Positions 18,661 through 41,365 of a stretch of DNA of 41,640 nucleotides are shown here, piece by piece (the stretch's first letter is position 1; each line of letters opens with the position of its first letter). Location of the stretch: contig JAMCYV010000010.1 in NCBI GenBank assembly GCA_023473595.1, positions 1 through 41,640 of the forward strand, read 5' to 3'. This stretch comes from Patescibacteria group bacterium. Its GTDB lineage: Bacteria; Patescibacteriota; CPR2; UBA1875; JAMCYV01. The notes below the pieces were generated by a model, which had not been told where the DNA came from, made no database searches, and saw only the letters and a list, made by a program, of their open reading frames with translations. A program made the translations under genes and the position numbers.

Positions 18661-18741
18661 TAAATTATATTTCTGCAAAATCTCTTTTGCCAGCAAATTT
18701 TAACATTTTAAACTCAATAAATAAATACTTTAAGTCCCAGT

Positions 18742-18770
18742 TGCCATAGACCAAAATTTGGTCTATGGCA
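18742..18770. repeat. perfect palindrome overlapping the wHTH stop codon
   Basis: Two 14-bp arms, TGCCATAGACCAAA and its complement, around one central A. It has the same 23-bp core as the operator at 19046-19070, on the other side of the gene. The last two codons and the stop (18763-18765) of the winged-helix gene lie in it. It could be a second binding site or part of a terminator. Confidence 0.75.
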
Positions 18771-19038
18771 GTTTTTTAATGATTGATTCAAACTCGTCAA
18801 AAAAAGCAAACTTCTTATCTAAGAGATAAAATGTTTTTGTTGGGGTTAGTTTTTTGTCTAAAAGTCCTACAGCTGTTAATCTTCTCAATTCATTCATCGT
18901 TGTTGTTCGTGGCAATTTCGTTTTATCCGCAACCTCGAGTTCGTAAAATGAAGTATTATTATTGCTAAAGAAAAGCTTTAGGATCTTTACTCTCGCTTTT
19001 GAATTAAATATTATCGATAAGTTTTTATCTTTACTCAT
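18763..19038 (-). CDS. winged-helix transcriptional regulator
   Basis: A 91-aa DNA-binding protein. The sequence reads SIIFNSKARVKILKLFFSN, then the helix-turn-helix SFYELEVADKTKLPRTTTMN and a wing (TAVGLLDKKLTPTKTFYLLD), like ArsR/MarR-type single-domain regulators; no effector domain or metal Cys pairs are seen. ATG 19038 is chosen because it sits 6 nt after a promoter -10; a TTG start 18 nt upstream would lie inside the operator. A palindrome fills the promoter spacer and a sister palindrome covers the stop codon, so autorepression is the simplest reading. Confidence 0.8.
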   Translation of the reverse strand: MSKDKNLSIIFNSKARVKILKLFFSNNNTSFYELEVADKTKLPRTTTMNELRRLTAVGLLDKKLTPTKTFYLLDKKFAFFDEFESIIKKLP

Positions 19039-19044
19039 AAAATA

Positions 19045-19073
19045 ATCATAGACCAAATTTTGGTCTATGACAA
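19045..19073 (-). promoter_or_regulatory. promoter with palindromic operator for the wHTH gene
   Basis: Minus strand: TTGTCA (19068-19073), 17-bp spacer, TATGAT (19045-19050), then 6 nt to ATG. The palindrome at 19046-19070 (12-bp arms TCATAGACCAAA around one T) fills the spacer and overlaps both boxes, so a bound dimer would block RNA polymerase. Confidence 0.75.
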
Positions 19074-19094
19074 CATTAAATATTTTTTAATATG

Positions 19095-21971: not shown

Positions 21972-22107
21972 AGATTCCTCGGCAAGCCCGGAATGACAAC
22001 TATAATTCCTCTGTCATACCGGGCTTGATCCAGAATTCTTCACTTGTCATCCCAAACTTGATTTGGGATCCAGCGGATATAGATTCTGAATCAAGTTCAG
22101 AAAGACA
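21972..22107. repeat. cluster of family-1 palindromic repeats
   Basis: Three adjacent copies: a right half ending GGAATGACA (21972-21998), a left half TGTCATACCGGGCTTGATCC (from 22012), and a whole unit 22045-22107 that starts TGTCATCCC and ends with GATTCTGAATCAAGTTCAG plus AAAGACA. The latter right half is the same as that after the GIY-YIG gene at 40436 and in comF. Confidence 0.8.
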
Positions 22108-24855: not shown

Positions 24856-24862
24856 AGTAATA

Positions 24863-25239
24863 GTCATTCTGGCTTGTCCAGAATCCTTTCATAAAGATCC
24901 ATTAGATTTGGGTTTTCTTTCTTTATTAATCTTAATTTTTCTTCTCTTTTCATATTTTTTATCTGCTTCTCTCTTATAATCGCTTCTAAAGGAGTTTTAA
25001 AGCATTCAAAATAGACTAATTTGTGTATATGATATTTTTCTGTAAAACCTTTAACAACCTCTTTTTTGTGTTGGTAAACCCTCTTTATTAAATCATTTGT
25101 CATGCCGGTATAAAGCGTTGGCCTCTGGTTGGCCATTATGTAGGTGTAATATATTTGGCTCTTCATATTCTGTCGCCTGGTTTGTCTGGGATCTTGATTC
25201 TGGTCTCTCCCGACTATCATCGGGATCGCCAGAATGACA
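24863..25239. mobile_element. palindromic element carrying a GIY-YIG gene, copy B
   Basis: The GIY-YIG gene is bounded on one side by a half palindrome (TCATTCTGG...CCAGAATCC, 24864-24886) and on the other by a longer palindrome ending GATCGCCAGAATGACA (~25170-25239). The same outer sequences without any gene occur inside femX at 25427-25498. The ORF's last codons (ILDKPE) and stop are encoded by the repeat. Confidence 0.65.
24864..25166 (-). CDS. GIY-YIG endonuclease, copy B
   Basis: A 100-aa stand-alone GIY-YIG nuclease domain (UPF0213/COG2827-like). The motif pair is YYTYIMA (6-12) and LYTG (17-20), then NDLIKRVYQHK with the catalytic Arg, LVYFE, and AIIREKQIKNMKR with the catalytic Glu. 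All nuclease core residues are present; no DNA-binding domain. ATG 25166 is chosen; upstream codons come from the repeat. It is 40-50% similar by eye to copy C at 40145 and sits in the same palindrome context. A role in moving the repeats is inference. Confidence 0.88.
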   Translation of the reverse strand: MKSQIYYTYIMANQRPTLYTGMTNDLIKRVYQHKKEVVKGFTEKYHIHKLVYFECFKTPLEAIIREKQIKNMKREEKLRLIKKENPNLMDLYERILDKPE

Positions 25240-25241
25240 TA

Positions 25242-26288
25242 TCAACGCATAATCTTTCTTACCCTGTTAACTAAAGTAAACATTTTATACCAAAACTGAT
25301 TTAAAATCAAGTCATAAGCGCCTGGAAACTTGACAACCTCCCCTGTCTCTCCTATTTTTGCAAATCCCATTTTGAATTTGGTGATGCCGGCCCAGGGATG
25401 GTTTTCGTCTATGGCCCAGCTAATATTGTCATCCTGGCTTGTCCAGGATCTATTTGATTCTGGTCTCTCCCGATTAGCATCGAGATCGCCAGAATGACTA
25501 GTTAGGGGCATTCTTTCAGCCGCAATTCCCCAGAAATCATAGTATTTGCAGTCTCTTTTCTTTGCCTCTTTTATGGCTTCCCATTGGGCTAAGTGGTTCG
25601 GCATAAATTCTCTTAAGTCGTTTGAAGAAGCGCCGTGCAGGTAAATGGTGGTGTCATTATAGAAAAGAATAATAAGAGAAGAGAGCGGTTTTTTTCCTAA
25701 ATAAACGGTTAGTATTATTAAATTATTGTTTGGACCAAGGATCTCGGCCATCTTTTCATAATATTCCTTGGGATGAGGGCTATAGGTCTTATCTCTTTCC
25801 GAAATTTCCAACGAAAGCTTATAAAAATCATCAACCTCTTCCTTGGAATAACCGGACTTTACTGTTAAGCCTTTCTTTTCAGCCAAGCGGGTATTGTAGC
25901 GGTGTTTGGATTTCATCCCTGCTAAAAGCTCTTCTTCTGTTTTGGTTAAATCTAAGACAAGGGTTTGTTTTGGTGAGTATTGCTGGGAAAGCGGCGAATA
26001 TTTATTAACTTTTTTTAAATTTTCTGATTCTAGAGCTTGGCTAGGTTCGATTCTGGTAAAAATTAACGATTTGTCTTTTGAAAAGTTGTTTACTGTTAAT
26101 TGTTTACTGTTTACTGAAACTGGTCCTTTTGGGCAGAAAAAGTAACTTTTTCCCTTCAAGAGCTTTCCCTTATAAAAAAAACTGCCGTCTAACTCTATCA
26201 CTTCTCGGCCAACGGCTTCCTGAAAATCAGCCCAAGCTCTAGATTGAAAGATATTGTTCTCTTTAGAATAAAGATTTTTCATATCCAT
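25242..26288 (-). CDS. FemAB-type aminoacyltransferase with repeat-derived insertions
   Basis: FemX/FemAB-family enzymes add amino acids from tRNA to peptidoglycan precursors, or act on related acceptors. ~348 aa. Family landmarks: IFQSRAWADFQEAVG (about 10-24), LDLTKTEEELLAGMKSKHRY and YYDFWGIA, then HPWAGITKFKMGFA and YDLILNQFWY. Two stretches look foreign: VNSKQLTVNN (simple repeat at 26085-26120) and a 24-residue insert with HSGDLDANRERPESN between WGIA and the HPWAG motif, which is a family-1 palindrome read in frame. Start ATG 26288 lies 7 nt after TAAAAT. The short longer frame upstream is not conserved. Confidence 0.85.
   Translation of the reverse strand: MDMKNLYSKENNIFQSRAWADFQEAVGREVIELDGSFFYKGKLLKGKSYFFCPKGPVSVNSKQLTVNNFSKDKSLIFTRIEPSQALESENLKKVNKYSPLSQQYSPKQTLVLDLTKTEEELLAGMKSKHRYNTRLAEKKGLTVKSGYSKEEVDDFYKLSLEISERDKTYSPHPKEYYEKMAEILGPNNNLIILTVYLGKKPLSSLIILFYNDTTIYLHGASSNDLREFMPNHLAQWEAIKEAKKRDCKYYDFWGIAAERMPLTSHSGDLDANRERPESNRSWTSQDDNISWAIDENHPWAGITKFKMGFAKIGETGEVVKFPGAYDLILNQFWYKMFTLVNRVRKIMR
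25427..25498. repeat. family-1 palindromic element inside femX
   Basis: 72 bp (24 codons), left half TGTCATCCTGGCTTGTCC, right half ending GATCGCCAGAATGAC. Both halves match the flanks of the GIY-YIG element 200-600 bp away. Frame is kept, so the protein gains an in-frame insert. Confidence 0.8.
26085..26120. repeat. GTTTACTGTTAATT simple repeat inside femX
   Basis: Units of TGTTTACTG/TTAATTG, read as VNSKQLTVNN in FemX. A similar stretch lies between comF and the transposase (41468-41495). Confidence 0.55.
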
Positions 26289-26295
26289 ATAGCTT

Positions 26296-26301
26296 ATTTT
26301 A
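26296..26301 (-). promoter_or_regulatory. -10 box of femX (leaderless)
   Basis: TAAAAT on the minus strand, 7 nt before the ATG at 26288. Confidence 0.45.
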
Positions 26302-26324
26302 GCATAGAAGCATCTGCTTAAAAA

Positions 26325-26356
26325 TCTAAAAGGCGAACAAAATGTCCGCCTTTTAA
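26325..26356 (-). terminator. terminator of the gene at 26353
   Basis: AAAAGGCGGACA...TGTTCGCCTTTTAGATTTTT on the minus strand; the stem includes the last codons and runs into the femX promoter region. Confidence 0.65.
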
Positions 26357-26991
26357 TAGGAAAAATACCAGGGGTCTGCGCCTTTTCCTTCTTCTCTGGC
26401 TTTCTTTGGCGGTGTGTACTCAGGTGGAACAACAATCCTAAGTTTGGTTAACCAAAAGTCCGCCAGTAACTCAAAGGCTCTATTGAAACGTCCATAGGTC
26501 TCATCATAAAGACCTTGGAAAAATAACCTCGACCCCTTTTTGCCTATAGCTTTAAGCTTATCAATGGAATCCATGCCTTGTAGCGAAACGTCGAATCGGC
26601 CTTCTTGCAGCCTGATTTCTTCTGAAGTTTTAGGCTTTAGCCCCATCTGATAGTAAGATAGCCACTCAAACTCCAGCTCATAGTTAGGCCTGTCTTCGGA
26701 AGACATTATGCCATCTTCCAAGGCGATGAAGCTAAACCCAGCGAGCATTGATTTAAGGTCATCTAGAAATATATTGCTCCGGGGGTTTTTTGCGTCCAGG
26801 TAAAACGAAAAGCCGGAATGGTAAAGACCTATCTTTGGCTTGATATGGCCACCACAAGAATAGTCGCTTATAAAGAAAGGCAGGGAATTCAGCTTTACTA
26901 TGAGAGATCGAATATTCCTGTCAACTCCCAGCATTATCTCTTCTACCTGCTCCTTATTTGGGCAGGCTTTCATAGATAGTTTAATAAGCAT
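26353..26991 (-). CDS. hypothetical protein (212 aa)
   Basis: Not recognised. A soluble protein. It begins LIKLSMKACPNKEQ, has a possible small motif ISDYSCGGHIKP (about 40-51) and FSFYLDAKNPRSN, then an acidic stretch ELEFEWLSYY. The C-terminus is Pro-rich and basic (PPEYTPPKKAREEGKG). ATG 26991 is chosen because GGGAGG lies ~6 nt upstream; a longer in-frame extension is Lys/Leu-rich and lacks a ribosome site. Divergent from tsaD, and followed by its own terminator. No transmembrane helix or signal peptide. Confidence 0.7.
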   Translation of the reverse strand: MLIKLSMKACPNKEQVEEIMLGVDRNIRSLIVKLNSLPFFISDYSCGGHIKPKIGLYHSGFSFYLDAKNPRSNIFLDDLKSMLAGFSFIALEDGIMSSEDRPNYELEFEWLSYYQMGLKPKTSEEIRLQEGRFDVSLQGMDSIDKLKAIGKKGSRLFFQGLYDETYGRFNRAFELLADFWLTKLRIVVPPEYTPPKKAREEGKGADPWYFSY

Positions 26992-39967: not shown

Positions 39968-39977
39968 AGTCCCTCCT

Positions 39978-40068
39978 AGATAGTTAATTAGTTAAATAGG
40001 CAAATAGTTGATCAGGAAAAGCCTAATTCACTAATCAACTGATTAACTAATTACCTATTTATAATTAT
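39978..40068. repeat. imperfect inverted repeat upstream of hsp20
   Basis: TAGTTAATTAGTTAAATAGG and its near complement CCT-AATTCACTAATCAACTGATTAACTAATTACC units. AT-rich; no operator family recognised (no CIRCE). The hsp20 promoter should be here but is not clear. Confidence 0.4.
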
Positions 40069-40111: not shown

Positions 40112-40461
40112 TGTCATTCCGGACCTGATCCGGAATCTAAAGATATGAAAACTTATTACGTTTACATGATGGCAAATAGGAAGCAAGGTGTTATTTATAT
40201 TGGTGTAACTTCTAATATTATTAAGAGAACTTATCAACATAAAGAAAAGTTAATTGAAGGTTTTACCAAGAAGTATAATCTAGACAAATTGGTATATTTC
40301 GAAGCGACTTCAAGTGTTGAAGAGGCAATTAAAAGAGAAAAACAGCTAAAGAATTGGAAAAGAGGTTGGAAAACTAATCTCATAGAGAAAACAAACCCTA
40401 AATGGCAGGATTTATATAATAATTTATTAAGATAAGATTCTGAATCAAGTTCAGAATGACA
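40112..40461. mobile_element. palindromic element carrying a GIY-YIG gene, copy C
   Basis: A left half TGTCATTCCGGACCTGATCC (to 40138), the GIY-YIG ORF, and a right half GATTCTGAATCAAGTTCAG to TGACA (40436-40461), which begins one base after the stop codon. The same two halves without the gene occur in comF 0.6 kb away. Left and right halves together form the short element. Confidence 0.7.
40145..40435 (+). CDS. GIY-YIG endonuclease, copy C
   Basis: 96-aa stand-alone GIY-YIG nuclease. YYVYMMA and IYIGVTSN hold the two core tyrosines, IIKRTYQHK the Arg, LVYFEATSS and AIKREKQLKNWKR the Glu, ending NPKWQDLYN. No other domain. It is homologous to copy B at 24864 and similarly framed by half palindromes. 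Upstream there is no ribosome site; the ATG follows AATCTAAAGAT of the repeat. Likely cuts DNA; its target and any role in repeat movement are inferred. Confidence 0.88.
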   Translation: MKTYYVYMMANRKQGVIYIGVTSNIIKRTYQHKEKLIEGFTKKYNLDKLVYFEATSSVEEAIKREKQLKNWKRGWKTNLIEKTNPKWQDLYNNLLR

Positions 40462-40483: not shown

Positions 40484-41365
40484 ATGATTGAAGAACAGTC
40501 GTTAACTATGAAAGCTAAAGATTTTCTCCTTGACCTCTTTTTCCCTAAGAAGTGCGTCTCTTGTGGGAAAATCGATACTTTTTTATGCGATAAATGCCTT
40601 AGAAAAATCGTCTTTATCAAATCGCCTGTTTGCCTTGGGTGCGGGAGATTATCAGAAAATGGTAAGTTTTGCCCTAGATGCCGGCCAAAAAACCATTTGA
40701 AAGGAGTCGTTATCGCCGCTCACTTTGAAGAAGGACCTCTAAAGGAGTTAATCCACAGTTTTAAATATGAATCTTTGAAAGGATTAGATCAAACATTAGC
40801 CAACTTTCTTGCGGCCGCTCTGAAAAGGTATAATTTTAAAACCGACTATTTGATTTCATACGTTCCATTGCATCGGTCAAGATACCATTGGCGGGGCTAT
40901 AACCAATCGGAGCTTTTAGCCAAAAAAACAGCGGAAGCAATGAATATGTATTTTCTTAAAAACTTGCTCAGGAAGAAAAAGAAAACTAAGTATCAAATTC
41001 AGCTTAAGAGGAAGGAAAGGCTCCTAAACTTAAATGGGGTTTTTGAAGTTAATAAAAAAGTTGCTTTAAACTGTCATTCCGGGCTAGACCCGGAATCTAA
41101 GAACAAGATTCTGAATCCCGCCTTCGCCCAGCTTCGGCCGGGCGGGCAAGTTCAGAATGACAAAACAGTTAGCTGCTCTTCTTGTCATTCCGACCCCATT
41201 CGAATTTCTCAAGGTAAATTCCATGGAGGAATCTTTTTAAAAAACAAAAAAATAATCATAGTTGATGACGTTGTAACAACCGGGACTACCCTAAACGAAT
41301 GCGCCAAGGTCCTAAAGGAAGCCGGCGCTAAGGAAGTCTGGGGATTGGTTTTAGGCAAACACTAG
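40484..41365 (+). CDS. comF: ComF-like phosphoribosyltransferase with repeat-derived insert
   Basis: ComF-family protein linked to DNA uptake in competent bacteria. 293 aa against a usual ~230. An N-terminal zinc-ribbon region with four Cys pairs (CVSCG, CDKC, CLGCG, CPRC) is followed by the core: FKYESLKGLDQTL, ISYVPLHRSRYHWRGYNQSELL, RKERLLNLNGVF and the PRPP loop KKIIIVDDVVTTGTTL. Between FEVNKK and GGIFLKNKK ~45 residues (NCHSGLDPESKNKILNPAFA...) are encoded by palindromic repeats (41072-41215), in frame. Start ATG 40484 has AAAGG upstream; ATG 40508 is an alternative. Confidence 0.88.
   Translation: MIEEQSLTMKAKDFLLDLFFPKKCVSCGKIDTFLCDKCLRKIVFIKSPVCLGCGRLSENGKFCPRCRPKNHLKGVVIAAHFEEGPLKELIHSFKYESLKGLDQTLANFLAAALKRYNFKTDYLISYVPLHRSRYHWRGYNQSELLAKKTAEAMNMYFLKNLLRKKKKTKYQIQLKRKERLLNLNGVFEVNKKVALNCHSGLDPESKNKILNPAFAQLRPGGQVQNDKTVSCSSCHSDPIRISQGKFHGGIFLKNKKIIIVDDVVTTGTTLNECAKVLKEAGAKEVWGLVLGKH
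41072..41215. repeat. nested palindromic elements inside comF
   Basis: A family-1 unit (left half TGTCATTCCGGGCTAGACCC, right half GATTCTGAATC | AAGTTCAGAATGACA) is split at the bar by a 30-bp GC-rich family-2 hairpin (41118-41147). A second partial family-1 left half (TGTCATTCCGACCCC) follows near 41182. The reading frame of comF stays open throughout. Confidence 0.8.

Follow-up and report, generated by a model that had tools for sequence, protein, structure and literature searches.

Based on the window (the whole stretch of DNA analyzed, 41,640 nucleotides of contig JAMCYV010000010.1 from a Patescibacteria group bacterium) and on comparisons with other genomes, a mobile-element origin was proposed for a 72-bp palindromic unit that is read in frame inside a gene for a FemAB-type enzyme (FemX). 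The unit is likely to be the gene-less (MITE-like) form of an element composed of a REP, a GIY-YIG nuclease gene, and an inverted REP, in which the nuclease moves the REP-bounded units. Judged by sequence comparison, the GIY-YIG nuclease is the leading candidate for the enzyme that the CGTC-tagged REPs have so far lacked. On balance, though with less assurance, a wider reading is also favored, in which this GIY-YIG subgroup would be the dedicated mobilizer of the whole CGTC super-family, including the Rickettsia-type palindromes, and a GIY-YIG REPtron would exist in most phyla and would still be adding peptides to housekeeping proteins.

Table 1. Coordinates of REP-bounded elements, in-frame REP units, and the genes carrying them in the window.
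Feature	Position	Strand	Remarks
REP-GIY-YIG-REP element, 376 bp	24863-25238		Putative gene-bearing version of the FemX unit
Short REP arm of this element	24863-24885		GTCATTCTGGCTTGTCCAGAATC
GIY-YIG nuclease gene of this element	24864-25166	-	Last codons read from the short REP arm
Long REP arm of this element	25196-25238		
Second REP-GIY-YIG-REP element	40112-40461		Arms 40112-40138 and 40435-40461
GIY-YIG nuclease gene of the second element	40145-40435	+	
REP head-to-head dimer, in frame in the FemAB-type gene	25427-25498		Arms 25428-25450 and 25456-25498; absent from homologues
FemAB/FemX-type aminoacyltransferase gene carrying the insert	25242-26288	-	First ATG at 26288; frame open to 26435
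REP dimer, in frame in the ComF gene	41072-41162		Without counterpart in ComF homologues of 12 other genomes
ComF-type phosphoribosyltransferase gene with in-frame insert	40484-41365	+	Sequence and domain matches
Four degenerate REPs clustered between genes, similar in type to the FemX unit	21972-22107		Repeat matches

The ORF at 25242-26435 on the minus strand was assigned to the FemAB family by PF02388 (E 1e-27) and PF13480 (E 5e-17). The insert comprises 72 bp, or 24 codons, in frame and without a stop, and positions 25428-25498 encode SHSGDLDANRERPESNRSWTSQDD, which is flanked by the motifs YDFWGIA and HPWAGITKF. The repeat matches, the open frame, and the hairpin arms bear out the sequence-only reading, which had placed an in-frame unit of this length between the two motifs. 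The unit is built of a REP, a 5-nt spacer (TATTT), and an inverted REP, with a hairpin fold in each arm. Positions 25454-25498 have a counterpart at 25194-25238 (93% over 45 nt), as do 25425-25450 at 24860-24885 (88% over 26 nt). The same reading had noticed the repeat DNA around the neighboring GIY-YIG gene, which was true but understated; the two halves of the unit bracket that gene, and both arms of the FemX unit recur in unchanged order in the 376-bp element, where the gene occupies the position of the spacer. The gene is a neighbor of the repeats, as had been said, but not a bystander, since it lies within the unit and probably serves as its mobilizing partner.

Bacterial REPs were sorted in 2013 by Di Nocera, De Gregorio, and Rocco into GTAG- and CGTC-tagged super-families (PMC3733652). 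According to the available text of that survey, CGTC REPs possess an unpaired CGTC tag, often TGTC, a stem of 8-9 bp that begins with complementary AT, a loop of 4-5 nt, and a tail that is mostly CCA, and they occur mostly as head-to-head dimers. The super-family includes the neisserial dRS3 as well as two elements of Rickettsia conorii, RPE-6 (CGTC-1) and RPE-4 (CGTC-4). The hosts given there span five phyla and are mostly Alphaproteobacteria, with no CPR (Candidate Phyla Radiation) host named; this text assigns no dedicated enzyme and leaves the spreading agent open (PMC3733652). Of 121 arms of GIY-YIG elements, 111 have T or C just before GTC, and in the arms of the window GTC follows T or A. 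One arm in genome G011, ATTCCCGC-GCAG-GCGGGAAT, is an exact fit to the stem and loop of the super-family; the short arms of the window have a 7-bp stem starting with AT and a 5-nt loop, and the long arms have a larger loop. The tails mostly start with C (CTC, CTA, CCA, or CTT), CCA itself being a minority in the sample. By their (T/C)GTC tag, AT stem start, C tail start, and head-to-head dimer, the units appear to match the CGTC super-family. Because they fit the super-family that contains RPE-4 and RPE-6, the likeness to Rickettsia palindromic elements that the sequence-only reading had suggested holds in tag, stem, start of the tail, and dimer. Its further statement that such elements are known mainly from Rickettsiales has to be dropped, since intragenic REPs are recorded in the available survey text for Opitutus, Thauera, Stenotrophomonas, and further bacteria, with UvrD, TruB, and excinuclease genes hit in several groups (PMC3733652). 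Protein-invading REPs outside Rickettsiales are therefore already known; a 2024 review still goes no further than "conceivable" for protein evolution of the RPE type in other prokaryotes (PMC10969869).

Twelve small GIY-YIG genes are present in the genome. Six of them form one subgroup and are nested in REP-gene-REP elements of 348-404 bp, and every one of the six REP-gene-REP elements of the genome carries GIY-YIG. None of the six genes outside the subgroup lies in REPs; they stand beside tRNA or rRNA genes (L002, L003, L005, L007, L009, and L013). At L007, the partial 5' half of a tRNA-Asn gene lies upstream of the GIY-YIG gene, the stop of which overlaps an intact tRNA-Asn, as though tRNA genes were the target of another GIY-YIG lineage. 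The nested gene belongs to PF01541 and not to PF01797 (HUH/Y1), and proteins of the subgroup have one domain of about 95 aa, beyond which Pfam found none. The catalytic Tyr, Tyr, Arg, His, Glu, and Asn are 96-100% conserved among 73 sequences, and the closest solved structures are PDB 1zg2 and 1ywl (E 2e-6 and 0.0016, respectively). Two further palindromic arrangements were observed in the window: an imperfect inverted repeat of 40 nt (73%) at 39977-40061, just upstream of the second GIY-YIG element, and, at 18740-19074, a small winged-helix-like ORF (18763-19056, minus strand) between two copies of the palindrome CATAGACCAAA(A/T)TTTGGTCTATG, which could be read as another palindrome-wrapped gene or as an autoregulated operator pair.

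The nested arrangement recurs far beyond this genome. A search for the subgroup over the genomes of 84,980 species yielded at least 579 relatives, of which the best 80 were kept and provided 76 usable loci. Among these 76 (best 80 of at least 579 relatives), a tagged REP upstream with its inverse downstream was found in 46 loci from many phyla, compared with a both-arm rate of 0.2% at 890 control places in the same loci, and the inverted repeat between the upstream and downstream sides exceeded the 99th percentile of the controls in 44. One or both recognizable arms are missing in a third or more of the nuclease relatives. Within the CPR, both tagged arms are present at 17 of 27 nuclease loci, as against one of 12 Y1 transposases (the best Y1 matches, mainly IS200-like). 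Conservation at the element ends begins at (T/C)GTCATT, with none outside. An annotated plasmid collection shows clear nested copies from Rhizobium, Shinella, Sinorhizobium meliloti, and Azospirillum lipoferum; S. meliloti, A. lipoferum, and Neisseria are among the hosts named in the available text of the 2013 survey (PMC3733652). On plasmid AZO_p3 of A. lipoferum 4B (L305), a REP-bounded GIY-YIG gene lies in the Suf operon, with sufB on one side and sufC on the other. A link of GIY-YIG to REP or palindromic elements in bacteria was not found in the openly searchable literature, outside of which subscription papers and preprints lie; as far as this literature shows, the REP-nested GIY-YIG nuclease is an undescribed REPtron variant.

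Signs of movement were seen in several genomes. In G011, a 414-bp stretch is shared at 99.5% identity by two copies of the element that lie in unrelated surroundings; it begins at TGTCATTCC, and its other end falls within 4 nt of GGAATGACA, i.e. at the outer REP ends. The G011 pair points to recent copying of a whole element bounded by the outer REP ends. In a second pair, from G161, the copies face opposite ways and share 94% identity over 483 bp, and the right end extends about 10 bp past the REP. Furthermore, the same intergenic place holds a REP dimer in G009 and G011 and a REP-bounded nuclease gene in G010, which could reflect homing into a resident dimer, gene loss, or separate insertion. 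The G011 copies showed no target-site duplication, and a search for clean empty sites by comparing G009 with G011 turned up only small indels, located at REPs.

The number of repeats varies with the nuclease. Among 192 genomes of the phylum, the median excess of TGTCATTSYSR sites is 22 in the 61 genomes with the nuclease subgroup and 2 in the 131 without it (Mann-Whitney P 2e-17, kinship between genomes ignored), and the odds ratio of an excess of at least 15 given the nuclease is 21 (192 genomes, kinship likewise ignored). The presence of Y1 transposases has no effect on REP number within either nuclease group (P 0.32 and 0.11). Repeat number tracks the presence of the nuclease, not of tyrosine transposases, and a RAYT/Y1 transposase as the REP driver was not supported by this result or by the rarity of REP-flanked loci among the best, mainly IS200-like, Y1 matches given above. 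Across phyla, REP type changes 11 times on the nuclease tree, compared with a shuffle mean of 26.9 and with none of 400 shuffles as low, and the REP type around the nuclease is the commoner of the two repeat types of the host genome in 28 of 31 cases. This tree agreement is part of the claim and not independent proof of recognition, because repeats traveling with the gene follow its tree by inheritance.

The REPs could instead have been spread by other means, such as RAYT-like or other transposases or gene conversion, with the GIY-YIG gene as a homing-type parasite that uses REP dimers as a safe and abundant landing site. GIY-YIG domains are those of classic homing nucleases, the PHROGs matches of P0003 are homing endonucleases, and the presence or absence of the gene inside a REP dimer (G010 versus G009 and G011) is the expected trace of homing into resident REPs; such a parasite would also agree with the eleven REP-rich genomes of the phylum that are without a strong nuclease match. 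Against it stand the roughly tenfold rise of REPs with the nuclease and the match of the nuclease arms with the dominant REP type of the genome; Y1 transposases do not account for REP number once the nuclease is known, and the available text of the 2013 survey reports no transposase beside CGTC REPs (PMC3733652). A landing-site role is accordingly regarded as unlikely.

The preferred reading remains a dedicated mobilizing role of the nuclease, which is likely, cutting at REPs followed by copying repair being the most likely form. The single-domain nuclease would recognize (T/C)GTC-tagged REP hairpins and cut them or the DNA close by, and during repair the REP-bounded unit, with or without the gene, would be copied to new places. 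Its target may be a short palindrome bound by a nuclease dimer or a hairpin formed by single-stranded DNA at replication forks; a short palindromic or hairpin target is plausible because the single-domain nuclease has no recognizable extra DNA-binding modules. The process could resemble homing, or transposition in which GIY-YIG takes the role that the HUH tyrosine transposase (RAYT) has for GTAG REPs. Homing proper rather than transposition is a tentative and somewhat doubtful choice; to our knowledge, GIY-YIG enzymes are not known as transposases. The gene-less dimers would be MITE-like derivatives moved by the same nuclease, and those that add whole codons to a permissive loop could survive inside proteins.

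A host housekeeping role of the nuclease, for example in hairpin-processing repair, with the surrounding REPs serving as regulatory or terminator hairpins, is highly improbable. Although the strong conservation of the catalytic residues and the common location of REPs at gene ends, as described in the available survey text (PMC3733652), would suit such an enzyme, the subgroup has 0 to 15 matches per genome, some copies contain stops, and the copies lie in unrelated places that differ between close relatives. The arms are inverted repeats, the outer ends of which bound the duplicated unit, and no single-copy nuclease location conserved throughout a clade was seen.

The gene-less units are numerous in the genome, where the pattern GTCATYCYNG occurs at 105 sites, compared with 15 for a reversed-pattern control. 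Inspection of the stretches around these sites revealed 12 genes with in-frame REP units: besides FemX and ComF, these encode prepilin peptidase, XerC/D, MiaB (two units), 3-methyladenine glycosylase, dihydroorotase, PEP synthase, DinB, UvrD, TruB, and UvrC. Of the two-armed units found by the pattern, 9 of 15 lie inside ORFs, and those in frame are oriented head to head. Pfam and NCBIfam domains continue on either side of the inserts, which suggests that about a dozen apparently working genes contain in-frame REP units. Five of the 12 genes (L173, L181, L198, L228, and L230) function in DNA repair or recombination (UvrC, XerC/D, MPG, DinB, and UvrD), and genes of this kind are among the REP insertion targets of other species too, according to the available survey text (PMC3733652).

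For FemX, 16 genomes of the class were compared, and homologues were found in all 15 others. The linker between the two motifs comprises about 6-8 residues in the class homologues with a readable junction. The nearest relative, the FemX of G006 (L015, 58% identity), has its own 31-residue linker at the insert site, without a REP hairpin, and the site tolerates different insertions. As the sequence-only reading had expected, no repeat-free homologue with the insert residues was found; SHSGDLDANRERPESNRSWTSQDD is present in none of the class homologues, the G006 linker included. Since the linkers of the homologues are short or unrelated and without REP, the FemX insertion is real, in frame, and lineage-specific, its coordinates being the limits of the REP unit and not mapped insertion ends. 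A CGTC-tagged REP dimer would have been inserted where the homologues have a short variable linker, and it would have been retained since it adds a whole number of codons and can be read in one frame without a stop. Single-sequence AlphaFold gave a pLDDT of 32 for the insert, and no target-site duplication was seen at the FemX or ComF inserts. That the segment is a native loop, or the gene a pseudogene with a frame open by chance, is scarcely credible: the long linker of G006 would allow for a loop, but the DNA of the segment belongs to a family repeated elsewhere in the genome, its residues are those of no homologue, and a dozen genes carry like units with intact domains on both sides. Taken alone, the FemX insert is a further member of an already known phenomenon.

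CGTC REPs are widespread, and a named candidate enzyme makes the question of their spread testable. If the proposal is true, the protein-invading palindromes of Rickettsia would gain a possible source of movement, and palindrome-made protein segments would be extended to the Candidate Phyla Radiation. It was asked in 2006 whether other GIY-YIG proteins are molecular parasites (PMC1564403), and this question would be answered for one GIY-YIG subgroup.

Among known systems, the small UPF0213/YhbQ-like GIY-YIG proteins (PDB 1zg2 and 1ywl) share size and fold family with the nested nuclease; they differ in that no tie of GIY-YIG proteins to bacterial palindromic repeats is reported in the searched literature. 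Free-standing GIY-YIG homing endonucleases of the I-TevI type share the catalytic domain and, in one reading of the G009/G010/G011 site, target-splitting insertion. In contrast to them, the present nuclease has one domain only (about 95 aa) and is encoded outside introns between palindromes of its own, and no phage match was found for the GIY-YIG elements. With the CGTC super-family, the units share the (C/T)GTC tag, the AT stem start, a short loop, a tail mostly starting with C, head-to-head dimers, and in-frame insertions (UvrD, TruB, and excinuclease); the difference is that the arms here bracket a GIY-YIG gene, in the CPR and in many phyla, whereas the 2013 survey, in its available text, gave the super-family no enzyme. 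With the Rickettsia palindromic elements, they share a palindrome in frame in unrelated functional proteins, here in 12 genes, the link running via the published identity of RPE-4 and RPE-6 with CGTC-4 and CGTC-1 and not via direct sequence comparison. The closest parallel in design is offered by the REPtrons, formed by GTAG REPs and RAYT/TnpA-REP: in both, one gene for a small DNA-cutting enzyme lies between inverted REPs, many gene-less REP dimers (REPINs) are found elsewhere in the genome, and enzyme and repeat form repeat-specific pairs, but here the enzyme is GIY-YIG instead of HUH/Y1 and the tag is (C/T)GTC instead of GTAG.
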